Source: Owenia fusiformis (Eukaryota > Annelida > Polychaeta > Sabellida > Oweniidae). From it: DNA of 64,000 nt. Shown piece after piece: positions 8,001-62,200 of this stretch. A program made the translations under genes and the position numbers. Numbering within the stretch: the stretch's first letter is position 1; each line of letters opens with the position of its first letter. The stretch lies in contig CAIIXF020000001.1 of assembly GCA_903813345.2 (NCBI GenBank), positions 11,885,915-11,949,914 of the forward strand. The letters run 5' to 3'. Under the pieces are notes generated by a model that saw only the letters and a program-made list of their open reading frames with translations, had not been told where the DNA came from and made no database searches.

Positions 8001-11000
8001 GGTTTCATGGATTCATCTTCTATGTGTGAAAGTTTAGAACTGATTAGTTTTTGGGCAGTCTGGGTAAATGTTAGGGCGGCCATTTTGGATTATCCATCCT
8101 GAAAACTGTATTCTATTCAAGGGTGTGATTCTGTTCACTTGTTTTTTCTTTGCTTGTTGGTCTCTCTTATTTATTTTTGTTCTCAAGAACATATAAAGTA
8201 CTTACAGTCAACCCACTCCATATCCCTGCCCCAAGGGAAGCAACATGATCCATTACTATGATAAAAGCTGCTACACCAAACATTGCAGAGATTATTCCAA
8301 ATGTAACCATAAGTGAACCAAGTATTATGAGATGTTTTCCATTAATTCGTTCAATATGTTTAAACATAATGTTCTCCTTCACATGGGGCAAACTTGCTGC
8401 ATCAGATGGATCTGTGACTGTGTCCTAAAAATTAAGATATTATACATTAGAAATTCATTTTCAACATAACTGGCCTACCGTAGGTGGTTGAGAAAGGATA
8501 TAGCGGGGCTATCTGTCTTTTCGTCTGGCTGTCGTTGTTCATTTGCCTGTTCAGTTTACAGTTTGTGAACTTCAAATGTTATAGGCTTAGTGCCTTTGGG
8601 GCATAGGATATCTACCTGAGAAGGCATTTATGATATGTTGGCATGTTACATCATGGATGTAGATTTTGACAAAAAGTGACAATTCTACTGCCTGATTGTT
8701 ATTACCATGAATTGTTTAAAATGACAAAGTGATATTGATAAGATATGTTTATGGTTGGTGGGATTTTCTACTCTTTGGGAGTTGCTGTTTTTCTACCTCT
8801 TTATTATATTAATAAATGAATAGGGATAGGTGTTCAAATGCAATAAAGTTGAAAACCACATATCCTGTCCATGGTCTTTCCCATGGATAAAACAGACTAT
8901 CCATTCCTTTCAGTCAAATTTTTGTTTCCAGTCACTTTAAGTACCATTCCACGTGTGAAGAAATAAGATTTTTCCAACCAATTGTTACCTGAGCTACCAG
9001 TACAGTCTTGACAAAGGTTAAATTCTTACTTATTAAAATAAATGTATTTTACCTGTGACTGTAAACTGGTGATAACCCTAGAGCAAGTAACTGCAGATAT
9101 AACACACAGAACTCCCTCCACGATGGACACAAACACAAGCACTACATTCATTGCTATTCTGGCCTCCTGAGAAAAACCATGCATCATTATAAGTTAATGA
9201 AAACACAGAATGAAATCCTGTGCTAAGGGCTGAAGTGAAAAAGTCAGTCCACCCCAGTGGGGATCAAACCCACGACCCCTCACTTTCCAAGCAAGTGCTC
9301 TACCACTTAGCTACAAGACCGACTGGCCTTTTTGCATCAACATTGCATATATAGCATTGCAGCCATGTCTTACATGCCCATGCGAAAAGGGCATGTACAG
9401 GAGTACAGTATAAGTCCTTGTGCCCCCCTACACAGTACACTTGCTCCACATACGGTTGTGAAGTAAGTAGAAAAAAGGGAGTCCAAAGAATTGAAGCAAG
9501 ACTAATATCCTATTGATTGCACTTTGAGAACTTAATATAAGGAAAAATTATTATTTAAAGTACAAACCAGTTAGTCTCTCTTTATCTAATGTACTCATCT
9601 AACAGAATGGAAATACTCACATTTTCCTTGCAGTGTCTGCTAACTACTGCATATGCCCATGAAAAATTACACATCACTCTATTATCATTTGGGGAGTATA
9701 TGATGAAATTATGCACATCAACCACTAGACCATAAGATGCTATTATGAAGAGGCTGACACATGCAACACACGCTGTCACAATAGACATCACCAGGAATGT
9801 GACAATCTGCAACAGAAAGAATATGTCACTGCTGCAGAAATAGAGTGTCCACATATTTCATGGTCAGTGTATTGTATTTGTACTTTGATGACTATGCCCC
9901 CCCCCCCCTATCAAAGTATTCAAACATATCCAAACATAGGGTATAAGCAGATTAAAGTGAATTCATATTGTTGTATTTCTTACCAGCCACTTTAGCTTTC
10001 TTTTGCCTGCAAAGACACCAACTACACCAGTCATGGTAAAGAACTGGAAAAAATAACAAAATGTTTGAAAAATGGTATCTGCTTAAATGTTAGGGTTACT
10101 TACTCATAATTTATGATCATCTATTAAGAAGTATTCCCGGTGCATGTTGATTCAACATGTCAGGTGGTTATACTCTCTGATCATTATGATCTCAATCAAT
10201 TTTCTCTACTTTAGTGGCAGAATATATAGTATTGTAAAAAGCATACTAATCTTATATTTCATCTTAATTTCATTATATGGTAAAAAATTGTTGTGAGATA
10301 ACTGATCTGCTTTTAAGGTGCAGTGGTACTTAAAGACCCTAAACATGATGACATAACTTTTTCAGCCCTCTGAAAATGTGACTTGAAAATAGTTAAAAGT
10401 AGGAGCTTAGGAAAGGTCACTGAACAGAATCTTTTGATTTTTAAAATCAAAAGATTCTGTTCAGTGACCTTTCCTAAGCTCCTAAAACAAACCAAAAACC
10501 TGAAAAGGTTATTTCATCATGTTTATGGTCATTCTGACCATGGACATCTTGATCCTTGTCTTGTAGATGATATGTGGAACTATTTGAATTGACTTGAGAT
10601 CAAAAAAGAACTATGTTATCTTTGTTCAAAAAATGTTTAAAAATGCCACATTTTTTGTCACTTCCTGTTTTGTCATTTCCTGTTAAGTACCACTGCACCT
10701 TAATGTCACCACCACAAGTGATGACATATTGTTAAAGTCCAACTTTTTTTATGGATGGTGTACTGGGCACTTTAAGGAGACACTTTTTGATTTTCCATTC
10801 AAACCAGTCATTATTATATCAATCCAATGTATTTCACTAAGTTGTCGTCCAATGGTTGTACTTACACATAATCCACACCATATACCAGCCCCATGGTTAG
10901 CCCCAGCTGATCTCAAACCAATGGCAGCTGCGCCAAATGCTATAGCAATGATTCCAAATATGATCATAAGATATCCGAGCCAAATTGATCTTCTTCTATT

Positions 11001-20811: not shown

Positions 20812-23800
20812 TTATTCCCACTCAGTGGTCCCAGGTGGTTTGGAAGTGAGGTCATAAAGCACTCGAGATATTCCTGGAATCTTCATTACCTCATCTGCCA
20901 TTTTGAACACAACCTGGAAAAAAACAATCAAAATGCTATAACTGAACATACTTTCATAATAGGTACAAGCATAGACAAATAAGGGCCCAGGTCAAACACC
21001 AATATGTCAATGAACTAATATTTAAGTAAGGGGGTGAAAAATGAAATTAATTTTTTTAATTACTGATATTTAATTAATATTAAGCTGTGGATTTTCAGAT
21101 CCGAGAATTTACTTTGATAAATTTTATCAAATTTTTTTCCAAGATTTATCCCACAATGCATCATCACCATGATGAAAATCAATTCTCAGATCGTACAATG
21201 TAAATACCTCTTCTGTTAAATGTTTCCCTGGTTCAGCTGCTATCCCAGTCATAAAATCAGCTGTCATAAATGTCCTTATCACAATTGACCATTGAGACGA
21301 GGGTTGATGTGCGACAGAATCGCGATCAAAATGGATGGGAATCATAATTACAGGCATCTGGCTGATTTTCAGAGTCTCTCTTGCATCCATGAGTTGTTTG
21401 TTGACGACATGATCAACCTGGCGTAGCGTCCCGAGGACACCTGTTGTCAGGAAGGTTGGGGTGATGTCATTGACAGGATGCATTATGGGATTTCCAAAGG
21501 TGTAGACAACTCTGGAAATACAAACATTAGAATTATAAGGAGATCAAATATTAAATCTTGTGGGTACTCTTTATATCGCTCACCCTGTACCTAGGTGGAA
21601 TACAGAATGGTTAGACAGATATGAGGATTGATGAAAGAAGAACATTTATACTTCCACTAGCAAAGTGTTAAATGGAAAACTTTCTGTTGTACAAATCTTC
21701 CTATATCTATTACCTGATTGATTCAAAAATGAGTGCTATATGTTACACATGCAGATATTGTAGAACCAAAACTCCTTCATACAGCAGCTTATGTACAGGC
21801 AAAGCTTGGTAACCTCAAAAACTTACCTGTTAATATTATGACAAATTCTGGGTATGATTTTGGCAAGTGACAATAGATCCTTCCAACAGGGCTCACTATC
21901 TGATGACAATGCTACCACATAACTGTATGTGCGACAATCGCCCTACAATAAAATACATTCAGTAATATAATGCATTTAAAGTTTCATTTGTCAAAGGTTT
22001 GAGTCATGTCAAACTCAGTCATCAGCTACAGTTGGATGATGAGTCAATAATGAGTCAATATGAGTTAATAATGCTGGCTTTCCAAAAAATGCTCACACAT
22101 TACTGCTTTAGTCAAACAGTCTATTTATGGAATGTGACTTATACGTTTCGTACGTTTAACTGTTCAAAAACTGTTAACTCACAACTTTTTACTACACTGA
22201 TACATCTGCATTGGAAGTAAAATTATTAAAATTTCAGTATAATATGTAACGATAGGGGGGCATTATCTTAAACAAGACATTAACATGCAAAATGCCACCA
22301 CCTGCCATATACATACTCCAAATGCCAACCATCGAACACTGTCCACAAAAAAAGTTGGAGACTTTAACAATATGTCACCACTTGTGGTAGTAGTGACGTA
22401 ATAGTTCCGGACTTACCTGTACACCCACTGTTTTGATGGGAAGAAGTGTTGAGATGTAGCTGTTAGCTGAACTAATGCGCATTAATTCTGCTTGCTCTTC
22501 CTCAGTGGTGCATTCCTTTACACGGGTGAGCAGTGCATGAGGCTAGAAACAGATTGTGCATAAGATTCATGGTGATATCATCAGTGTAGAACCAAACACT
22601 GGTACTAAACAGACCTCAGCATTTGAGGATCCTCACTGAGCTGAACATGCTGCGGAGCTCACTAATACATATAGCCCAGTCCCGCAAAACATGAGATACT
22701 GCCGAGCAAGCTCATGGTATCACAAGGTCTGGTTTAAATACCCATGTTATATGTTTCACAAGTTTTCATATTTGAACAATTATTGAGCAATTTAGTCATT
22801 GAGTTTGAATTCTAGTGACTCAACATCTAAGATGAACCACATTTTGAAAGTGGAAATGCTAGTACTTCATTGATTATTGAATCTATCGAATTGTTTATTG
22901 AACTAATTAACTGTATACCCTTACCTTTTTTATTGAATTTGAAAAGTCCACTATAATTTTTAATATGATTTTAGTTTCTGCAAAATCTTTTTCCCTATAT
23001 GGTTCTGAGGCACATATCACCCTGATAGCTAGTCCTGGTCCTGAAATGATGGATGAAATATAAATGATCTTAATGACCTTAAATGATCTTACACTACTCC
23101 ATTATGTATTGACTCGTAAAATAGCTCACAGTGATGAATATCACAACTAAGTGACAAACAGTTTAGCTTTTTCTAAAGATAAACTAGAAAAACAGCAACT
23201 CCACGGAGGAGCAAATCCCACCGAACAAAACATATTATGCTTATTATTGCTAGTGTAAATGTTGAAATGTTTGTGCACTTTGTGATAGAAGCATGAAATT
23301 TAGTTAGTTAGTTTATACCATTGTGAACTAGGCATCATCATATAAAATTTGAACCAAATCTGTTCACTGGTATATGTGTTATCAAAGATTACGTTTTTTA
23401 CGAAAATTGGCCGCCATCTTGAAATTCAGCCGCCAACTTGAAAATTATTTCTTGAACAGAGCTACTGTGTCCCTAGGCATAATCATATAAAATTTCAACC
23501 GAATCTGTTCACTGGTATTTGAGTTATCAAAGATTACGTTTTTTATGAAAAATTGCCGCCATTTTGAAATTAAGCGGCCATCTTGAAATATTTTTGTCGA
23601 ACATAGCTACTGTGTCCCTAAGCATCATCATACAAAATTTGAACCAAATCCGTTCACTGGTATTTGAGTTATCAAAGATTACATATTTTTACGAAAAATG
23701 GCCGCCATCTTGAAAATCTCTTTTTGTGCGGAACCCCTTTGTCCCTAGGCATCAGCATATAAAATTTGGACCAAATCCGTCAACTTGTATTTGAGTTATC

Positions 23801-26800
23801 AACGATTACATTTTTTAAGAAAAATGGCGGGCATTTTGAATTGAGCGGCCATATTGAAAATTCCTTCTCGAGCAGAGGTCCTACACTCATAAGGCATAAG
23901 CCTTCGTTCGGTGGGATAATAAAAGACTCAAGGGCTTATCCAAGCTATCATGCTTTGACCTAAGCTGGCAAGTGTTGCAAAACAGCATTCTTGGCAAGGG
24001 CTTTTGTATTTTCGATCATAATTTAGAAATTGCTAAACAATGGACGATGATGCAGAGAGTAATCTACGACAGCAGACCAACATTCAATTAAATTTGTAAA
24101 TTGTGATGGCTTGCAATTAGGTTTTAAACTGGGTATATTAAAGGTAATAGGTAAAGTCATAGGCAAGGTACAACAAGGTGAGTTTTTATTTATTAATCTA
24201 GTCTACCTAGGTTTCAGCATTTTTGTCAATTGGTTAATTAATGAACTTGTAGAAATAGTGTTACCTGGGAATGGATGTCTTTCCACGAGCTCACTCGGTA
24301 GACCTAAATCTCGACCAATCTGCCGAACTTCATCTTTGTGGAAATCTTTAAGGGGTTCAACAACTCGTCCTCTTTTTCTTAATTCTCTAACAAGATCTGT
24401 GTCATTGTGATGTGTCTTTATGGCATCTGCTTTGTTACTGGCCAACTCGCTAGCACTCTCAATGAGGTCTGGCCGTAAGGTTCCTAGACAAACAATTCAA
24501 AATTCTTATACTATTAAAATATTTGTACCATGTACCCCATATCTATTTGGCTGGGTATAAATTGCACGATTCAGTGTAATAATTAATAAATATAAATGCA
24601 GACATACAACCTGCTTTTGCTTGTTAGTATACCACATGGATTATGTCAAACATTATTTGTATTATGCTACTAACAATATTTCAAACTATTTAAAATGATT
24701 TGATGGCTATACAAAATGCTTTTTTGAAAACAACTGATCATTACCTTGACCCAGGTAGACATCTTCTATTTTTAGATTCAATTCCTCTACAACTTCATTT
24801 GCAACCTAAAATAGTAGATAAAATACGATATGACCAATTTTGTGAATATTGATAATATAACAAGGCATTAACATGCAAAATGTCACCACCTTCCATTTGT
24901 TACAAATGCTGAACACCAACCAACAAACAACACCAGCAGAACACCATTTACAAAAAAGTTAGAGACTATAACAATATGTCACCACTTGTGGTGGTGACAT
25001 AAAAACAACAGATAGCAGCCAGATCAAATCACTGCATAGTACAAGTAAATACTACTTTTATCCTTTCATCAATGATATTACTAGGTTATTCTATGGGGAT
25101 GAGGGGTGAAACGATATATTGTTCATAGAAATCAATGTATTTCTGTACCTTCATAAAAGTATCTCCTATGATGTTTCGCTTTTCTTCCGGACAAGACGTA
25201 CAATTGAGCATTTTTGTTTTTCTTTTCCGACTAACTGGATCTGATTTGTCTATAGGGATTGAGGTGGTTCCAGTGTAGAAGTCATGGGAAGCATTTACAA
25301 CTGAAACAAATAAACATTACATTTGTGTTATATTTAACTTGCATACTAGAGGTGTCAAGTATTAACCGGTTAACCGGTTAACCGCCGATAATGACTTAAC
25401 CGGTCTGTGTTTTTATGGGTGGTTAGTTGACCGTGAATAATTCTTTTATTTCCCGCGCTAATATTGCATGCTCATCTGTTTGGTTTTAAAGTGTCAGTTT
25501 CACGTAAGCTTCTCATACATGTCATAAGTCCGATAACTCCTTGCAAACATCCAATCAGCAACTTTAATCCCTGACACATTGCTTTCCCGAGCTTACTTTG
25601 CATGTTAATCTGTTTGTTTTTCAAGTGTCAGTTTCATGTGAGCTACTCATACATGTGATAGTTCCGATCACTCCTTACAAACATCCAATCAGCATTTTAA
25701 TCCCTGCCACATTGCTTTCCCGCGCTTACTTTGCATGTTATGCCTGGGTCACATTTTCCCCGATCCATCGGCCGGCGCCCGGCCGATTGAGTGTTTTGTT
25801 CAATATTGTATTCAATTTTGAACAAAATACTCAATCGGCCGGATGCCGTAGTGAAAATTGGAGCTAATGTGACCAAGGCATTAATCTGTTTGTTTTTCAA
25901 GTGTCAGCCATGTGTAATCAACTCATGTTGCAAAACTATTTCATAAATAAATTATATGCATTTTTTAATTCTTCAGTTTTGTTATTATTGTTGTCTATCA
26001 ACGTCGCCAAAATGTCAAAGGTCAAAGCCTCGCTTTGGTAGTGAGAAAATTAAAATCAAAATAAACACTAATCAGCTGCAATTCTCGTTGTTATGGTGCG
26101 TTCTTGGAGATTCCAAGGGTAAACCAGTGTGGTAATTTAGAGGTACCGGTAGTCAGGTAGTGTATGAATAGAACAGAGTAAAGCTTGACAAACGTATAAA
26201 ATAAACGCTGATATATCATCTTTCCAATTTTTTTCAACTTTCAAGATCGAAGATGAAGATTTCATTTGAAATTATCAGTTCAAATTTCCCGCCGGTTAAC
26301 CGACTTTAACCGGTAAAAACATCCAGTTAACCGGTTAATGCTCAAGCAGTTAATTGACACCACTATTGCATACCCTCGTAAATATCGAAAATCTGATACC
26401 TTTTAAGAGAGGAAATCAAACTGATATGTTACATCGAGTATTATATTATATTATAATATGCTCTAACATTTTTTGTTATTACTTAACACACCAAATTTCC
26501 AAAGAAATATTTTTAGAAATATTCAGATCAAGAACTGCTTTTGACAATATGACACATAAGGACAGGATACTTTGTACCACTATTGACTTGGTCTCACCTC
26601 TTAGTTTGAGTCCTATATTCTCTAGGGACTGTTGGACATGTTTGCTTTCGTGTTTCCTCATAAAACCATTGTCTATATGTACAGCTATGACCTGTTCTGG
26701 GGTAAGGGCTTTGTGTAATAGTGAAGCACACACAGTGGAATCCACACCTCCACTAACCAACATCTGCAATAAAAGTAGAGTGAAAATGAAGACATTTTAT

Positions 26801-29800
26801 ATTCAGTACACAGCCAATCTCCAACAGTACCCTATGGTACTGTAGACTAAAACGGCAAGTTTAAAGGGTCAACAGCTGTAACTCTCATTCTAAGTAACCA
26901 CTAAATATTTTTATTATAATGATATTAGTAACCAACACAAATAATATATTAAAATTTTGAACATTTTAACATTTTCTTTCTTACTGTTTTATATGACACC
27001 CAACATACCAATACTTTACTGTCTTTTACTGTCTTCTTAATATAATCAATACAGACAGCCTCTCGAGAGGACATTGTGTAGCTACCAGTGAAATGGCAAA
27101 TCTCAAAAAGGAAGTTTTTCATCATTGCCATGCCATTCTGTGTGAGATCAACCTCTGGGTGGAACTGTACTCCATATAACTGAGCGCTCTCATTAGCAAT
27201 TCCTAAAACAGATTGAACACATTTATTGACATTGTTTTTACTTCATGTAAAATTGACAATATGGCCAAGGAATATTCTTAATACTGAACAAAATATTAAA
27301 ACTAGAAAAATAGGACGCACGGTCCTGTGCTCACACAGTTTGGAACCTTCAGAGGAATGTATATCCTGACTTTCAAACAAAAATATTGATTCGGATTTGT
27401 AGTCTCGAACTTTGAGAAACTTAGACAGCACAGTTGTGTGACCTAGTTTGATGACCTTTGACCTTGAACATTTTACTTATTTAGAGCTCAGTCTTATGTG
27501 ATTAAGCTGACCAAAATTTACATCCAAAAATCAATTTGAAAAATCAACTTTTTTGACCTTTCAAAGGTCACTGAAGGTCAAGTAAAGGTCAAATCCTAAA
27601 ACTAATGTCTGATTTGAACTCCTGGTAACTTGTAGATGATTTTCAAAAAAAATGTGGTCAAATTGAAGAAAGTTGAAAAATATCTTATTTTTACTGTTTT
27701 TTTACGTCAAATATCTCAAAAACGGTAAAAATTTGATGCTGACATATATTGAGCAATATGTAGGGAATGCTAAATCTAGTTATGATGTAATTTATTGCAA
27801 GAAATGATCAAATATAAGGTAAACTTTGAGAAACTTGTCAATCACAAAACCTGCCACTGACTTTATACATAAGAAAGTTTCCAAAAACAGTAATTCCAAG
27901 AGCTTTGAAATCTTCAGAGGACATAAGTTGCATATACAGCAACTACTACAAGTTATTTGAAAGTTCTACTTCAACAAAGTGTCTAGTATTTACAGAAAAT
28001 TTGACTTGTTGACGTCAAAATCAGCAATTTCTCGGAAACCGGGGGAACTTGGGAAATGGCGATGATAGGTCAAATAGGCATTACGGATATGCATAAAATG
28101 ACTTTGGATATGACTCAATCCGAATAGCAGTTTTAATTTGTGCGGCCAATGTTGACGGACGGACCAACGAACGGACGGACCAACGGACGGACGGACGGAC
28201 CAACGGACAGACGCCTGGTCGATCCCATAGGCTCACTGTGTGAGCCAAACACAGCAACTTCTCGGAGTAGCAAATCCCACATCATAAAACATATTTTATC
28301 AAGACTTGTATGCCCATAGGGTAAATCTACTGCAGATGAGCCTCAGTTCAAAGATTTCGGCCTTCGTATTTCAGTTTAACATGTTCTTTCACGAGGAACA
28401 AATCTGAGAATATAATCTACCTGCAATTGTTTTGCCAGACATTGCAACAGTCTTGAAGCCATCAGCTACTTTATCTATGCTATCTCCATGTGTCAGTAGT
28501 ACAACTTGTTCTTTTGATAGACCCCTAATATAGAAAAAAGAAGACATAAGAAACAATGCAATGTACAACAAGTAGCTGATTGTACAAAAACAAGTTACAC
28601 ATACCATTATCTGTAATTAGCACTCTAAAAAAAACATCTCCTTCAGACCATTCTAACATTGGATAATAATAATATAAATTCATGATTTCCCTGACTCCTG
28701 AGCATATTTTGGTATCCTTTAACAATAAGTTGCATAAATATACTGCCTCGCTTTAGGGAACCAGCAGTTATAGACATTTACCTGTAGAGTAGACATGTAG
28801 GATCTACTGTTATGTCAAACTGGCCATCTTCTCTCTGTCTCTTTTGTTCTACTTTTCCATTGAACTCATGATTCATCAACTAGTGTACAAGACAACATCG
28901 TGTTACATACATACAGGACATCAGTGATAAATACAACATGGAAATATATCTACATTGGTGGCAGGGGTGGGTGAAGTGTTTGTGGCAGAGGTTGATGTAG
29001 GCCAGGTTGGGCCATACTATTATGGTCACAACAATTCAATTCTTGGGAAGTTGACTGTCAGAGCCCTATATTGGTTGCAACTGTAATAAAGCTCACAGAC
29101 CCGTTCTTGACTTGGGGAGGAGAAATTATCACTATCAGTGACTGATCAGGTAATTGGTCAAGGACAGGTCACATGACAAAAAAAACATTTCCCTGTAAAG
29201 CTTACTGTGTATTGGCTGACACAAGAACCTACAAATTGTTTTTTAATATCCCATCTTCAGAACAAGGACCATTGAAAATTAGGCCTCATTTTTTGGGGAT
29301 AATCTGTTCAAGGTGTTCCCTGAATTGATCATCATACTGTTCATACTGATCATTGTTAGCTCTTAAATGCTTATGATATGACACAATTAACAAAATGGCC
29401 TTATCTATATATTTCCAACATAGTTCAAAAAGGGATGTGATGTTAAACATATATTAAACTTTGAATGGCCTTATCTGTATATTTCCAACACAGTTCAAAA
29501 AGGGATGTGATGTTAAACATATATTAAACTTTGAATGGTCATATCTGTATATTTTCACAACATAGTTCAAAAAGGGATGTGATGTTGATCATATAATAAA
29601 CTTTGAATGGCCTTATCTGTATATTTCCAACATAGTTCAAAAAGGGATGTGATGTTAAACATATATTAAACTTTGAATGGTCATATCTGCATATTTTCAC
29701 AACATGGTTCAAATCACAAATTACGACAATGTGTAGGCAGGGTGTGTGTCATCAGACATCATGCGGCACCTACTTAAACAAATTCAAGCCAGTATCAATG

Positions 29801-32096
29801 TCAACTTGGAACTGGCCATCTTCTCGCCAGGACGTCTGAATAACCGTGCCACCAAACTCCCTGTTAATCATCTAAAAAATGACAGTAGTACAATATTAAG
29901 GAAAGTGGATCTTAAGGAAGCAATTTTTCATATCCTAAAGACTACAAGTATTAGTGCAGCACCTATTAAAACCTAACTGCCTCACTGATATGATGAAGGA
30001 CATATAACATATGACATATAATATGATAAAGTGCAGGAATTAGTTGACACAGTTATTCTGATATTAATCAATACTATATTCAGAGTTAAGTGACTGTGTG
30101 TCCAATAACTGCGCAACAGTCTCATTTTCAGGCAACTATTACATTTCCATATATTAGATGGTTTCCAGATTGGGCCACTCATAAACATGTACATCACCTC
30201 GAAAAAGAAAACTACACACAGATACCAATTATTTCTCTCTTTTATTGTAAGTTTTAGAAAACTTCAGTAGTTAATTCTCAAAAGTATGTCAAAACGTCAA
30301 TAAAAAAGGTACAGTGAATGATTGTTTAAATGCTAAAGCATATTTTGACACATGCAAATATACTTTCAACAATACAGTTCCCAACTTTATGTATGTCTCA
30401 GTTATTACAATGCTAAGGATCTTATATATTGGTTAGGAAGCAAAGAAGTGGATAATAAATACCTGCATCCCATAGCAGATCCCAAGTACAGGCAGGCCAC
30501 AGCGGAATATATCAGGGTCATATCTTGGAGCATCATCAGCATATACAGAGTTAGGGCCACCAGATATGATAATTGCACTATGTACGTAAAAGAATAATAA
30601 TTTTAAATTAACACGAGATAATCTTTTTCATGACACAAATTAGGAGTTTTTATTTCTAATTATTAGCAACATGTAACCCATAGTAACAATGATGTCATAT
30701 ATGATGCAAGTTGCTACGTATTGCATTATTATACACAAACAGAAAATATGGGTTCTCTTTTTTGGGTCATCCTGAATTACAGTGGAGTGATATTTAAAAA
30801 TTCAAATCTTATTGGCTCGGAGAGACTTGCTATAATTCGAAACAGTCTTCAGAACTCCCATTAAAAGTGGGAAACATGAAGTTAACATACTGCTTTAATC
30901 ACTCAGATCAAGGTATGAACAAGTTTCTCTTCTCAACCACTCTATTCAGCAAAATATATTTTCTGACGATGGCAATGAGATCAATCAGAATTTCAGTGAT
31001 TAAAAATTACCTGAAACCATTTTCTTTGAGAGTAAATGCAGGAGTGTCCAAAGCGAGGATCTCTGTGTCAATCTTGAGTTCTCTAACTTTCCTGTCAATC
31101 ACCTATGAAAGCAAATAGTAAAGGTCAATAGCTGTATGGTCATCTTTTTTTAAACAACCCTAATAATTATATTATGAATAATTTATATTTCATAATGTAT
31201 AATGTTAATGAGTGTTACTCAATCATTTTTGATGTTTATAATTCATAATCATATGTTATTTACAATTTTTCATTTTTCAATTTATTTATTAAACCATCAT
31301 CCGATCATTGGGAATTAGGTACAACAATATAATAATATAATTTATTCCATAATAACAGTGAATAGAATTGATATTCAAGATATCCTGATCAGATCCCATA
31401 TCAGCCAAAATTCCATATCAGAACTATTTATGTTTTTCGTTTAAAAAAATATTAATGGAATAAATAAGTATTGATGGTTGTGAAAGAATATTAATTGTTT
31501 CCTTGAGAAAATATATTGGCAAAAAATATCACATTGACACTTGGGCAATCACCCTGGGACAATGTGATATTTTCTTTGGCCAATATCATATCCCAAAATA
31601 AGAATTATATTCCATCCCACCCATTAAAGTTGCAACAATTAGTGCAGAGGGGCCATTCAACGATCAGGGACCAGTGTCAAAATATATTTAAGTTTGGATA
31701 TTTCATCAAGACTTACATCTATTTTTATTATCTACAAAGAAACCACCTAGATAAACATCAGCTGATATTCCTCTTGAAACATTGAAACATGGTGGATCTT
31801 AAAAATGTAAAAATTGATTTCCTCTTTTTGAAGCTTTGAAGAAATTGATAGTTTATCCATACATTTTAAGAAAATAGGTATGTCAAAGAAGATGTTAAGC
31901 CAAATGTTGCCTTGATAGCTCAGAAAATTTAGAATTTTCCTATTTTCTCTGTACAGGCCTTGTTGCCCCTTTAAATAACCTCTATTTATCATCCTACCTT
32001 TCCGTACTGAGCACCAGCATCCAAAATTGCAACCTTCTCCATCCCTTCTGTGGTACCATTAACTTCGATACTCTCTCCATTCCCGTTCCCGTTCAT
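20812..32096 (-). CDS. GMPS: GMP synthase (glutamine-hydrolysing), complete, with duplicated exon 4
   Basis: Converts XMP, ATP and glutamine to GMP in the last step of de novo guanine nucleotide synthesis; cytosolic. Minus-strand exons in order: 31998-32096 (ATG 32096), 31011-31102, 30463-30577, exon 4 as 29774-29871 or 28782-28879, 28421-28524, 27009-27202, 26598-26763, 25149-25300, 24745-24805, 24265-24483, 22925-23040, 22417-22542, 21827-21942, 21208-21511 and 20812-20913 (stop TAA). With one exon 4 this gives 687 residues, against 693 in human. The class I amidotransferase domain has Cys98 in GICYGMQ and His184/Glu186 in FHPEV. The ATP-pyrophosphatase loop SGGVDST is at 238-244. [33 protein letters not shown] and the C-terminal [13 protein letters not shown] match the family closely. 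All catalytic motifs are intact, so the gene looks functional. The introns hold a hAT element with a nested MITE, a Helitron-like element and several minisatellites. The 5' UTR could not be resolved. Confidence 0.97.
22268..22395 (-). repeat. Short copy of the hairpin-ended repeat
   Basis: Inverted relative to 16166-18020: ends ACATTAACATGCAAAATGCC and AATATGTCACCACTTGTGG. Lies in a GMPS intron. The long internal minisatellite is missing. Confidence 0.75.
23184..23916 (-). mobile_element. Helitron-like element, copy 1
   Basis: On the minus strand it starts TCCCACCGAACGAAGG after A and ends TTGCTGTTTTTCTAG before T, with a CTCC...GGAG type hairpin just inside the end. These are Helitron termini. 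The interior has four repeats of ACTGGTATTTGAGTTATCAA with AAAATGGCCGCCAT blocks. No Rep/helicase is encoded. It sits in the GMPS intron 23041-24264. Confidence 0.75.
24860..25010 (-). repeat. Short copy of the hairpin-ended repeat
   Basis: Ends GGCATTAACATGCAAAATGT and ATATGTCACCACTTGTGG followed by its hairpin partner; about 150 bp, in a GMPS intron. Closely matches the copy at 48995-49125 in the opposite orientation. Confidence 0.8.
25347..26365. mobile_element. hAT-type element with perfect target duplication, copy 1
   Basis: Flanked by the 8-bp duplication TTGCATAC (25339-25346 and 26366-26373). Ends TAGAGGTGTCAA and TTGACACCACTA, with nested TTAACCGGTTAACCGG runs. Two tandem units of about 125 bp (AACATCCAATCAGCA, CCCGCGCTTACTTTGCATG) lie inside. 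A 140-bp element is inserted at 25741-25880. Lies in the GMPS intron between exons 7 and 8. Non-autonomous. Confidence 0.9.
25741..25880. mobile_element. PIF/Harbinger-type MITE nested in the hAT element
   Basis: TIRs TGCCTGGGTCACATT and AATGTGACCAAGGCA (one mismatch) flanked by TTA on both sides (25738-25740, 25881-25883), the Harbinger target type. An inner palindrome around CGGCCGATTGAGTGTTTTGT makes most of it a hairpin. The related hAT copy at 46921-47504 lacks it, which gives the order of insertions. Confidence 0.85.
27302..28243 (-). mobile_element. Helitron-like element of a second family
   Basis: On the minus strand the 3' end is AGGACCGTGCGTCCTATTTTTCTAG followed by T; the AGGAC...GTCCT stem and CTAG end fit a Helitron. 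The other end is a palindrome (GGCTCACACAGTGAGCC) next to a GGAC microsatellite (28152-28210). The exact 5' end is unclear. A fragment of the first family's 3' end (AACTTCTCGGAGTAGCAAAT) abuts at 28250-28290. In a GMPS intron. Confidence 0.55.
28782..28879 (-). CDS. GMPS: GMPS alternative exon 4b
   Basis: Second 98-bp version of exon 4, 894 bp downstream of 4a in the transcript, with the same start and end phase. It begins [10 protein letters not shown] and ends DPTCLLY plus two bases, closer than 4a to the vertebrate sequence at its C-terminal end (xCxLxR). The acceptor is CACTAG and the donor GTAAAT. Using both or neither copy would break the frame of the downstream exons. Confidence 0.85.
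29394..29700. repeat. Four-unit, about 70-bp tandem repeat between GMPS exons 4a and 4b
   Basis: GTTCAAAAAGGGATGTGATG recurs four times with ATTAAACTTTGAATGGCC. It lies within the 894-bp intron separating the two alternative exons, so it could affect their spacing or pairing. Confidence 0.9.
29774..29871 (-). CDS. GMPS: GMPS alternative exon 4a
   Basis: 98-bp exon, first of two tandem versions in transcript order, encoding residues 103 to about 135 just after the nucleophile-elbow sequence GICYGMQ. It begins [10 protein letters not shown] and ends DTGLNLF plus two bases. The acceptor is TTTTTTAG and the donor GTAGGT. Its peptide aligns without gaps to exon 4b (14 of 33 residues identical when the shared junction codon is counted) and to the equivalent segment of vertebrate GMPS. 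The reading frame is open and selected-looking, so it is not a decayed copy. Confidence 0.85.
31512..31586. repeat. Palindromic hairpin in GMPS intron 1
   Basis: ATATTGGCAAAAAATATCAC pairs with GTGATATTTTCTTTGGCCAA across a short loop. Strong potential RNA or cruciform hairpin; probably a small foldback MITE. Confidence 0.75.
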
Positions 32097-56547: not shown

Positions 56548-57761
56548 CTTGTAGAAGAGGCATTCCTGCCCAGATGATTTTTACATTAAAAGTGGAGTCT
56601 GTGTCATGGTATTTCAAAAAAGTGTATCCATTGGACTCTACACTTGATAAAAATAACATTTTGACACAAAAATACTCCCCTCTTATCTTTCACTTATCAG
56701 TAATATAGAAACTTCAGATCATAAATGCAATGGTTAATTTTTTGTCAAACCTGACAGAGAACATTACGTCTAATTTAACAATATTGCAAGAGGATAATAA
56801 GTCAATTTACAACAAATATATAATATAACCATGATCATGATTCACAATTGATTCTCAGGAAAGAAAATTATTGAGGTCATCTTTTTCTATTTAGTCCCTC
56901 TTTCGATATCTTCTCCCTGTAAAAAACAAATATTGTCTGGTCTCAAATGTATGGTAGTTTGTTGCTTCACAGTTTGCTGTTTGCTAATTTATTGGAAGCG
57001 TTTTTAATATCTCCATTCTATAATTTATAATAGAGGTCTATCTGCAGATGTCATAAATCACATTGGAATCAACTGTGATAATTGGAGTTGATGGAGAATG
57101 CAATATTACACTTCTCACATGACTGTCAGGAGGGCCTGCCTAGAGGGAATATTTTCATGAGAATAGGCAAGATGTGATTTATCTCAAATGATATGCTTTC
57201 ATTTGAAGCATCTGGATATCTATTTCGATTTAAATTTAACACAAACTAATTTCTATTGTTGCTTTTTAGCCATGACCTTATTGCCATGACAACAATTTTT
57301 TATTCTTGATTTTATTCTCAATGCTTGGAAAAAATTAATGTTGTGCCAAATTGTTTTTCGACAGGTTATTGTTCACTAATATTTTTCATATGAGTACAAG
57401 CTCAGTCTTAAATTATGAAACTTTCAATTCACCTTTTACTGAATAATTTTGTCATTTATTCTTACTGCAAACTTTGAAAAGGAACAAACTACTGCAGTCT
57501 GACAATGCTTGGGTTTTTGGCATTTTAAGAAATCGGTCATCTTCATTAAAGTAGGTGCTACACCCATGTATCCCTTTCAGATCTCAATAATAGGTGTTGG
57601 CTCAGCCTAACCATTTGTGCCCACTTGATAAAAATCCTGAAAAATTGGCATGTATTGATCAATTTGTGAAAATGACAATTTCTATACAAATCTGAAACAC
57701 AGCAAAGCTTTTGGTCTAAATTCTTTTTTTTTGTTCTGTAGGGATTCACAATACAAAGAAA

Positions 57762-59223
57762 ATGGCTGAAGAGCTGACTCATGATGAAAATTTGACCCCG
57801 GAACATCAATTGCTGGGTGATTTATTGAAGGATGCCGGATCTCCATCTATGTGCAACTTGACGTCTCAAACTGAAGGCACATCAACATATCAGTCTTGGT
57901 CACCATTCCTTACCTCTACCCAAACTGGACAGTTTGATTTTGGTCAAGGTACAGAGGCATCAGCTTGGGCAAATTTTCAGCTCCCCGATGAGAGTCCTCT
58001 TAATCTGCCTGGTGCACAATCCAGCAGACTCGGCTCTTATGAGGACTATATCGCATCATTAAGCCAGGCAGATTCTAACTCTGAACATGGCTCGGAAAGT
58101 GGTAACAACTTCTATGGCTTTTACCCTAGCACAATAGATGGCTTGGCATCTGGTATGGAAGCTAGTGCTGCCAATGGAAGGGATTTGTATGCGGAGGCTA
58201 TGCAGCAGTATAACTGCTACAATACTCAATATGATCCGTTTGGGTCTTCGGCTGTACTTCAAGATCTCACTGATGCAACTACTAAAACTCATAGCTCAGC
58301 TGCGAAACCTAAAACATATTCTGATGTTGCCAAAAACGCAGCAACCAAGCAACCAAAGATAGCCAGTGGTGGAGGTACTAAGATACCTGATGGGGGTAGC
58401 AAAGCTGGCACTGGGGCTCCACCAATGATGAGGCCTGCAGCAATTCCCAGGCATTTCATTAAGCAGAAGAAACCACGTGGCTTTTTCTTTCCTAAAGCGA
58501 GACATACATCCATGAGTGAAGATCTACCAATCCCTACTGTGAAACCTGATTCTAAGTATGGACTTGATAGCTTCGATGACTTCCCTGTTACTGGCCCTGC
58601 CAAAGAGAGAGCTAAACTGACTAAGACACAGTCGGCCGAGGAGCTACCCATAAGTCGCAAAGGAAGCACTAGTAGTGTGAGTAGCAGCAGTGGGATAGAA
58701 GATATCATCACCCCAATAGTTAAGCCAACAACCAGTCCTGGGGAGGGAAACCCACAACCCGTATCACGGAAATCCAAACAGAAAGAATCGGCCAGCAAGT
58801 CCAAGCAGCAGCAGCAGCAGCCAAGTAAGGTTTTCTTTGACCCTAGACGTATGTTCCCTGATCAAAGTACGAGAGGGGGATCTAGTAATGGCAAAGAAGA
58901 AAAGCATTCAATCCCAAATAACCAACACTCTAAGGCACCTGAAGATGGCCATATGTTGAATAATGGTAAACTGAACAGCAACTTGATGAAATCCAATGGA
59001 AATGTAAAGAAGAACTCGCAGACATACATTAACAACGACCTCAGAAATAAAACAGACAACAAGAAGCAGACCAACACAGAGAGCAGGGGGTCACCATACA
59101 ATGATAAGCCAGGAACTGGTATGAAGACAACTCACACTACCACTGGGGATGTACACAATAATAACGTACCAAAACCAGAGGCTGTCAAGAAGAAAAAGAA
59201 ACAGAAAGGTCATGATTATATAG
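57762..59223 (+). CDS. Large first coding exon of an unrecognised, mostly disordered protein
   Basis: A strong acceptor (TTTTTTTTGTTCTGTAG) precedes GGATTCACAATACAAAGAAA and the ATG at 57762. The frame runs 487 codons and reaches a consensus donor (ATAG|GTGAGT, 59223/59224), so the stop 30 bases later is probably intronic. The protein opens MAEELTHDENLTPEHQLLGD and is then low in order: Ser/Gly/Asn-rich N-terminal half, a KPKTYSDVAKNAATKQP segment, a basic patch (RHFIKQKKPRGFFFPKARH), Ser-rich runs, five consecutive Gln and a Lys-rich end. No folded domain is visible; conserved domains would be expected in exons beyond the window. A MEIOC-type germline protein is a weak guess only. The exon is more GC-rich than its flanks and shows no decay. 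The following intron exceeds 4.7 kb. Confidence 0.8.
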
Positions 59224-62200
59224 GTGAGTTCAATGTCTACTATTCATTTAACTAAAACTGCAAATTATGAAATCGCAGTGATTTAATGTGGCAGTTAATT
59301 GCATCTCAACTGTGCACAATGTTGTACAAAACACCATTTGAAAATCAATTATGCCAATCTCCCTCTACTTCCCTCTCTAACTCTGCCATTTGCAGCCTAG
59401 CTTCTTATAGGTTTGTAGCAACAAAATCACTGGTTGATTAGCACATTTCTTTACACTTGGTACAAATAAATAGCTAGAGGGTTAACATTTCGAAATAAGG
59501 ATATAGGTACCAGAAAATGTGTTTACGTCAGAGATGTTAATTTAAAAGTCACTTTGTGTTATAAAGCTAAATGTTTGCTTTGGTTATCATTGAACAGTGT
59601 AGCGTACAGCTATTTTTAAACAGCATGGTTGCATTAGTGCATGTATCTTAAATTAATTATAACCCTTTAATCATATATCATATATCAGCTTTGTGATACA
59701 TGTAAATATATCACATTTGTACAATATAGTTTACCGTTTATTCAGTTTACTGTACTAGGAATGCCATGCTGGATATTATTGAATAAATTCTTAACAATCT
59801 GATTGTTACAGTGTTATAATTAAATAAATGGCTCTTGACTTAAAAAGATTTATAAAAGTTAAATTTTAACTATGTATACATGTCATGTACCAGTATGTAG
59901 CTTTAATGTTACAACTCTTCAGTTTAGAAATAATTGTGCTCCCAAACATATCATTTACATAGAGGTTTTCAACAGAACTGGCTTTATTAAATATTATTTT
60001 ATTTGTCACATAATAACTTTAGTTATACAGGCTCACACATATTAAAAACTAGATTTCTCTAAATCTCAAAGTTGTTGATGTAATGTTTTTGAAGTACACC
60101 ACTGCTTCACATTTCAAACATTACATTTGACCCATACAGAAAATTAGTAAAATCTCATCTGTGCATCCAGGTCAGCATCGGGTCGAATTTGAAATAGAAG
60201 GTGATTTTAAAACAGCATTTGGTCAGTTTGAAGCAAGTTGAAAATGACGATTTTTACCCTATTTACTGAAATATTTACTGAAACGTTTATCGAGATTTAG
60301 CTGTAGGAATTTGTAGGGAATGTTTTCAGGATGTTTCACTTTATTCATAGCTCTTCAAACACAGAAACCTTTAATTTGACCTAGATTTAGATGTTTGACC
60401 TTGACCATGATACAAATAATTTCCCAGCAAGTCTACCCCAGGTCCCTGTTATTAGCAGCATAGGGTTAATAGCTGAAACCTAGCTAGTAATATGAGGAAA
60501 GAGACAGAAGAATGAATAAATGATTAATTAAAGTAATATTTTTAAGAGGGCCTCCTCTTGCTAATAAGAGATACATCTATAATATATGTAAAATGTAATG
60601 AATATATATGTATACTGTACAGTAGCTGTAATCAGTTAGTGGTATCCTACCACTGAGAAAATATAATCATTGGTCACAAAATAGTAGGTTAATAATCCAG
60701 TAGCCGACAGCCGAGAGTTGCATTCGCAAATACAAGCTTTGTGTCACAGATTCATTTCATGACAAAAATACCTGCAGTCAATACTGGCTAATGATAATAT
60801 GAACAATTGATTTCTGTCTCTTCTTAAAGCTATGAGAGAATGTAAAGATTAGGAATCCATTTCTTAAACCTTCCATCGGGTCATGTTTATACTGATGTTA
60901 TAAATCTGTACTTCTAATAATAAATTGTTATTTGCATTGCATTTGTATATTTGTTTGAAAGAAAGCCAATACAATTGTGAACTCAGAATGAAACCAAACA
61001 TCCTAATTACATGGCTTTGCCAAATACAAGTATAATCTTGCTGTTGTATCAATGTAAATAGAAGAAGAAATATTAAGATTGTCCCCCAGCATTTAAACTA
61101 TCATATGCTTTCCTATCTAGCTTTGAAATCTCTTTGAGGTCTCATTTCTACTGATTATCCCACCGAACGAAGTTCGAGGAGGATATAGAAAAGCCATCCG
61201 TCCGTCCGTTCGTGTGTCCGGGCAATAACTCAAATACCGGTTGACGGATTTCATTCAATTTTATAGACTTATGCCTTATGGGTGAAGGACCTCTGCTCGA
61301 TAAGGAATTTTCAATATGGCTACTAAATTCAAAATGGCGGCCATTTTTCAGAAAAAATATAATCTTTGTTTACTCAAATACTGGTGGATGGATTTGGTTC
61401 AAATGTTATATGCTGTTGCCCAGGTACAAAGGAGCCTTGCTGAAGAAGACATTTTCAAGATGGCCACCATATTTCAAAATGGCGGCCATTTTTTGTAAAA
61501 AAACGTTATCTTTGATAACTCAAGTACCATAGAATGGATTTGGATCAAATTTTATATGCTGTTGCCTGGGTACAAAGGAGCCTTGCTCAAGAAGACATTT
61601 TCAAGATGGCCACCATATTTCAAAATGCCGGCCATTTTTGTAAAAAAAGTTATCTTTGATAGCTCAAATACCATTGAATGGGTTTGGTTCAAATTTTACA
61701 TGCTGATGTCTAGGGACATTGACCAAAGCTCTGTTCGAGAAGGGATTTTCAAGATGGCAGCTAAATTTCAAAATGGCCGCCATTTTTCATAAAAGAATGT
61801 AACCTTTGATAACTAAAGTACCAGTTGGCGGATTTGGATTAAATGTATATGCTGATGCCTTTGGACAAGAGAGCTCTGCTAAAGGAGAAATCTAAAGATG
61901 ACAGCTGAATTTCAAAATGGCAACCATGTTTCATGAAAACACAATCTTTGATAATTCAAATACCAGTGGATGAATTTGGCTCAAATTTTATATGGCCGCT
62001 GTTTACCAAAACATGTTTTGTTCGGTGGGATTTGCTACTCCGTGGAGTTGCTGTTTTTCTAGTTTTAATATTTTTGCATGTTTAACCATAAAGACTTCTT
62101 TTTGCAAATAAGGTTTTACATTAATCCCATAAATTAAATAATTAAGTGACTTGTGTCAGTTGTCAGTATCATGAAATGGTTTCTTGCCCAACCAAAACAC

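Follow-up and report, generated by a model that had tools for sequence, protein, structure and literature searches.

Two alternative versions of exon 4 in the GMP synthase gene of Owenia fusiformis point to two forms of the enzyme

GMP synthase (GMPS) is encoded on the minus strand of a 64,000-nt stretch of the genome of the annelid Owenia fusiformis (assembly GCA_903813345.2, contig CAIIXF020000001.1, positions 11,885,915 to 11,949,914 of the forward strand), which we call the window. In this gene, the protein segment that follows the catalytic cysteine is encoded twice, by two adjacent 98-nt exons, 4a and 4b, and either of them completes an intact coding path. Both have been under constraint over most of their history, and the reading frame is kept only when exactly one of them is included. 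The likely explanation is an old tandem duplication of exon 4 whose divergent copies are both selected as protein and serve as splicing alternatives, so that two full-length GMPS forms result. We infer that each transcript carries one of the two exons and that both are in use in living animals today; judging from the sequence, the animal probably makes two forms of GMPS. The features that matter for this argument are the following.

20812..32096, minus strand: GMPS coding region, 15 coding exons per isoform, 687 amino acids, start codon assigned by reading
30463..30577, minus strand: exon 3, ending in phase 0 exactly after GICYGMQ, which holds the catalytic Cys98 and Gln102; donor CAG/GTATTT
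29774..29871, minus strand: exon 4a, 98 nt between AG and GT, residues 103 to 134 plus two bases of codon 135 (Lys)
28782..28879, minus strand: exon 4b, 98 nt between AG and GT, residues 103 to 134 plus two bases of codon 135 (Arg)
28421..28524, minus strand: exon 5, the downstream exon common to 4a and 4b, carrying the stop that is met when both copies of exon 4 are skipped

Exon boundaries were placed by reading the sequence and were then verified by translation. Exons 1 to 3, either 4a or 4b, and exons 5 to 15 add up to 2064 nt that encode 687 residues, and neither choice brings in a stop. Both versions of exon 4 enter in phase 0 and leave in phase 2, and both are open in the frame set by exons 3 and 5. 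Including the two together gives 2162 nt, with a double stop beginning at the second base of 4b; including neither gives 1966 nt, with a stop within exon 5. An earlier note on this DNA had described two adjacent 98-bp exons with 14 identical residues, both open, lying behind the catalytic Cys98, of which exactly one has to be chosen. This description held up: the exon coordinates are exact, the flanking junctions at 30463 and 28524 are correct, exon 3 does end after the Cys98 motif, each version translates without a stop between exons 3 and 5, and only one copy alone avoids an early stop.

By its sequence, the gene encodes a complete GMP synthase of the human type. Residues 31 to 697 of the human chain 2VXO align without a gap to residues 21 to 687, the last, of both isoforms, with 1007.1 bits for the 4a isoform and 1010.2 bits for the 4b isoform, and the GATase-ATPPase order is that of human GMPS (2VXO, 2VPI). 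The alignment includes the D1 region, which, according to a section of PMC9312489, marks one of two GMPS groups, the D1-bearing type being ensemble A. Both isoforms therefore belong to the D1-insertion type of GMPS. Plasmodium falciparum GMPS (3UOW, 4WIO) has the same GATase-ATPPase order and, unlike the gene here, is of the type without D1. The isoforms have the motifs of the catalytic triad in common: exon 3 supplies GICYGMQ, and exon 6 supplies QFHPEV.

We then compared the two copies with each other and with human GMPS. Exons 4a and 4b are identical at 14 of 32 whole codons (44%), or 14 of 33 with the split codon, and at 50 of 98 nucleotides (51%). Their BLOSUM62 score is 71, and 20,000 shuffles gave a mean of -32 (SD 12.4) and a maximum of 42; since the score lies beyond all of these, the similarity exceeds chance. 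When all 16 exons were searched against the window by tblastn (E up to 0.05), exon 4 alone had a second copy inside the gene, and the other off-place match was one of 15 residues to exon 14 (E 0.03), outside the gene. At codon positions 1, 2 and 3, the copies match at 17, 20 and 12 of 32. A maximum likelihood estimate gave a dN of 0.69 and a rough dS of 2.9, and silent sites are saturated; among four dN/dS estimators, two failed and one returned no dS, in line with saturation. The note had also seen a resemblance of both exons to vertebrate GMPS, and indeed 4a is identical to the human protein at 16 of 32 residues and 4b at 17 of 32. The two copies are therefore about as distant from each other as either is from human. 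Across the 32 positions, 11 residues are common to all three, 5 are shared by 4a and human, 6 by 4b and human, 3 by 4a and 4b against human, and 7 are all different. The segment is too short for these counts to settle whether the duplication came before or after the split from the human line.

It is highly improbable that the pair reflects an assembly artefact, a collapsed paralogue or a retrocopy. No point in support of this was found, and against it stand the low DNA identity of the copies, only 51%, their spacing of 894 nt inside one gene, and the length of the contig that carries this gene, at least 61 Mb. Furthermore, in a genomic DNA search of the 498-Mb assembly, exon 4a and exon 4b each match themselves only; neither has a second DNA match, and no retrocopy that could serve as transcript evidence was seen in this search. 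A protein search of the same assembly with isoform 4b returned 16 rows, 15 of which are the GMPS gene and one a match at E 0.8 with 25% identity.

A comparison with bacterial GMPS indicates what the two copies have kept. Of 33 loci fetched, 28 had an open frame that passed a motif filter (L002, L004, L005, L006 and L008 were dropped), leaving 26 distinct sequences, 24 of them from one phylum, with rows that are not independent. In 10 of 32 columns, one residue is found in at least 75% of the 26 sequences, and 4a equals 4b in eight of these ten (hypergeometric P 0.008). Gly110, Glu119 and Gly121 are among the eight and are kept in all 26 sequences; at columns 120 and 123, also among the eight, 4a, 4b and human share a residue unlike the bacterial one. 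At the other two of the ten columns it is 4b that departs, by G109N, which is taken up below, and by F134Y, where 22 of 26 bacterial sequences have Phe. We also ran a neutral simulation starting from today's copies (4,000 runs, substitutions only, no indels), in which survival meant an open frame and no loss at the eight conserved columns. Survival of 4a and 4b, respectively, fell to 1.9% and 4.5% at 0.2 substitutions per site, to 0.1% and 0.35% at 0.4, and to 0 and 0.025% at 1.4. Since divergence between the copies is saturated and neutral survival is rare, both have been under selection for most of their history. Their 50 to 53% identity to human is by itself no sign of decay, because exon 4 is the fastest-changing segment of exons 2 to 6: between bacteria and human it is 31% identical, against 37 to 61% for the rest of these exons.

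The segment was located in the enzyme with a structure model (mean pLDDT 95.6) of a GATase relative from bacteria and a folded alignment of 23 of the 26 bacterial sequences (L027, L029 and L030 left out). The top 20 solved-structure matches of this model are GMPS enzymes (TM 0.92 to 0.95), including 9kpv, which is titled only "enzyme" and has the same sequence as 1GPM. On the model, exon 4 comprises the second half of the helix after the catalytic Cys (residues 83 to 87 of helix 79 to 87), a Gly-Gly turn, strand 91 to 107 with the R-E-x-G motif, and the following loop. The His and Glu of the triad (HPE) lie in exon 6, common to both isoforms, and the motifs SGGP and THGD would place the remaining glutamine contacts listed by PMC4673825 in exons 3 and 5. 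The isoforms have the same catalytic residues, and their differences would fall in the latter half of the helix that backs the catalytic Cys and along the long strand. From the position of the segment, they probably differ in glutamine affinity, in how glutamine hydrolysis and GMP synthesis are coupled, or in stability, and not in chemistry.

The earlier note had suggested that the isoforms could differ in signalling between domains. Sections of PMC4673825 and PMC10526850 describe a rotated, glutamine-bound Plasmodium GMPS in which Cys113 is linked to Cys377, where the lid loop begins, and they report that C113A in the C89A enzyme changes the Km for ammonia, ATP and XMP; Cys113 is not conserved across GMPS, according to the section of PMC4673825. 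By arithmetic from end coordinates and chain lengths, Cys113 corresponds to residue 122 here, inside exon 4, with no gap from the catalytic Cys, and the Plasmodium insertion 119 to 151 starts just after residue 127 here. Since the Cys113 equivalent lies inside exon 4, an exon swap would alter the surroundings of a contact seen on domain rotation. The position of the segment thus favors the suggestion. On the other side, residues 118 to 123, including 122 itself, are identical in 4a and 4b.

This identity is one of several points that weigh against a pair of functional alternatives. Through G109N, 4b has lost a near-invariant Gly, which human, 4a and 23 of 26 bacterial sequences have. With 0.05 substitutions per site, neutral survival in the simulation is as high as 36% for 4a and 44% for 4b, which leaves room for neutrality that set in very recently. 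The identity of 4a and 4b to human, set against 26 of 34 for exon 5, gives a lower ratio than the 31% against 37% between bacteria and human, and the low identity of exon 4 relative to exon 5 would fit some relaxation. Neither copy is plainly the standard one, since the profile and structure scores are split: 4a scores above 4b with archaeal GATase subunits, TIGR00888 and the GATase profile PF00117 (148.3 against 144.4 bits), and most two-domain GMPS structures, as well as NF000848, give 4b the higher score. Exon 4a went unlisted in the protein search with isoform 4b, and a diverged second gene or a single-exon copy could escape such a search.

Some of these points would suit a different reading, in which just one copy functions and its sibling is a relic that is skipped or gets spliced in only by error. 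G109N and a weak acceptor in 4b, together with a weak donor in 4a, would speak for it, and the simulation indicates that a recent loss is compatible with the sequence; a very recent loss of one copy is possible. Yet both copies have an open frame and the same length and phase, they keep most of the columns conserved in GMPS, and they give near-equal, gap-free matches to human GMPS despite saturated silent sites between them. We therefore regard a relic as unlikely.

Splice sites were scored with a small model derived from the sites of this gene itself. In this model, the 4a donor has 3.8 bits, second-lowest of 15, and the 4a acceptor 2.1, fourth-lowest of 15; the 4b donor has 10.6 bits, fourth-highest of 15, and the 4b acceptor 0.6, second-lowest of 15. 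Among the 148 GT in 2.3 kb, the donors stand at the 95th (4a) and 99th (4b) percentile, and among the 120 AG in 2.3 kb, the acceptors stand at the 85th (4a) and 78th (4b). By score, both exons are predicted to have usable splice sites. AG and GT flank both, with upper-percentile scores, and each copy has one weak site. Weak splice sites are frequent in regulated exons. The strengths seem only partly complementary in this small model, given that the 4a acceptor is low too, and this counts among the points against alternative use.

We considered several devices that could enforce exclusive use. The intron between 4a and 4b, at 894 nt, is too long for steric exclusion. No U12-type donor was found. 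Upstream of 4b there is an AG-free zone of 68 nt, and the branch-point candidates, at 42 and 49 nt, are ordinary, unlike in OGDH (a section of PMC7969005), and no distant branch point is therefore needed for 4b. Five inverted-repeat pairs of 12 to 15 nt occur across 28421-30577 and were deemed unremarkable by a rough estimate. RNA docking or selector pairing was rejected, since the best pairing of a 16-nt motif shared by the two exons was equalled by 28% of 200 shuffled motifs. Frame breakage is present. Steric, U12 and docking devices appear to be missing, and this absence again weighs on the unfavorable side. Since none of these devices was found, the most likely arrangement would be a regulated choice with nonsense-mediated decay of wrong products. 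Regulatory proteins would choose between two exons, each with a weak splice site (in 4a the donor, in 4b the acceptor), and products with both exons or none, with their early stops, would go to nonsense-mediated decay.

The pair could also be mainly a switch for enzyme amount, in which inclusion of both exons or none leads to nonsense-mediated decay and tunes the GMPS level to guanine nucleotide supply. Both wrong products do stop early, upstream of many exon junctions; the failure to find a steric, U12 or docking device points the same way, and in a human study, a section of PMC5740500 gives joining reads for 18 of the 20 clusters that break the frame, in a set of 28 genes. However, a poison exon would not have to conserve its protein sequence, and GMPS residues are retained in both copies; we consider it decidedly unlikely that control of amount is the main role. 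A switch of this kind and the two-isoform role can coexist.

Mutually exclusive tandem exons are well known as a kind, and GMPS appears to be new to it. In the human pairs treated in a section of PMC5740500 and the tandem duplicated exon substitution events of PMC9741552, as in this gene, adjacent homologous exons encode the same protein segment and core residues are kept, and 377 (60%) of the human clusters in the relevant section of PMC5740500 have a length that is not a multiple of three, like the 98-nt pair. In contrast to those clusters, the host gene here is a housekeeping purine enzyme, and exclusive use is predicted from its sequence. OGDH, a core metabolic enzyme, has a mutually exclusive pair, exons 4a/4b, by which its regulation is tuned, as a section of PMC7969005 describes, and the GMPS pair is alike in kind. 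The earlier note knew of no alternative exon at this GMPS position, and indeed we found no report of duplicated or alternative GMPS exons in the open-access literature, with most subscription papers and genome annotation records outside the scope of the search. The review of GMPS in PMC10526850 does not describe an alternative exon 4 form, and neither "splic" nor "isoform" occurs in its main text; a term search of the main text of two genome-wide exon studies (PMC5740500, PMC9741552) found neither "GMPS" nor "GMP synth". Automatic annotation may already list both isoforms.

If both forms are made, the gene provides a natural swap of a strand and part of a helix next to the catalytic Cys of an essential enzyme. 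The isoform pair would then serve for studying communication between the GATase and synthetase domains, a central GMPS question in sections of PMC4673825 and PMC10526850, and the position of the segment suggests, as a testable idea, that these domains are coupled differently in the two forms. A purine-synthesis gene would also join the metabolic enzymes with such exon pairs. A broader scenario is possible but doubtful. The pair would date from early animal evolution and have been lost in vertebrates, and the forms would be functionally split, one for tight glutamine-coupled GMP synthesis and the other with an altered lid contact in the rotated state; the use of glutamine or free ammonia, or a non-enzymatic role (USP7 complex), would be set by splicing in particular tissues.

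The following further features lie in or between the two exons.

28818..28833, minus strand: 16-nt stretch GAGAAGATGGCCAGTT in exon 4b, identical in 4a, purine-rich, over the kept EDGQ core
29810..29825, minus strand: 16-nt stretch identical to GAGAAGATGGCCAGTT, the same run in exon 4a
29394..29713, minus strand: tandem array of 4.5 units of 70 bp or, in another reading, 2.3 units of 142 bp, in the intron between 4a and 4b

Outside the 16-nt run, exons 4a and 4b are about 41% identical in DNA (34 of 82). Shuffling of codon pairs very rarely yields an identical run of this length (P 0.0006), and identity of the four EDGQ codons between the copies has a P of 0.04 for a stretch chosen after looking. 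We do not claim a splicing enhancer or gene conversion behind it: silent identity over the 14 shared residues is as codon usage predicts, with 6 codon agreements seen and 5.9 expected. Downstream of 4a, about 60 nt separate the donor from the start of the tandem array. In the assembly, the full-length array matches itself only, and pieces of 33 to 55 bp match 18 other places among those listed.

Two observations concern the window outside GMPS. At 57720-59255, on the plus strand, a 511-residue open frame contains a Met followed by a low-complexity protein (MAEELTHDENLTPEHQ...). It has no Pfam match and is perhaps a large coding exon of a neighboring gene. In the assembly as a whole, a COX1 model had no match, and a model of the mollusc haemocyanin end domain had none either in a search that lacked a positive control and carries no weight. 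At 9249-9320, on the minus strand, there is a tRNA-like match (Rfam, 38.5 bits) that ARAGORN with its bacterial setting did not call. A further 39 copies with 85 to 92% identity are listed in the assembly (40 of 132 candidates were scored), some of them about 299 bp apart, and the element is probably a tRNA-derived short repeat.
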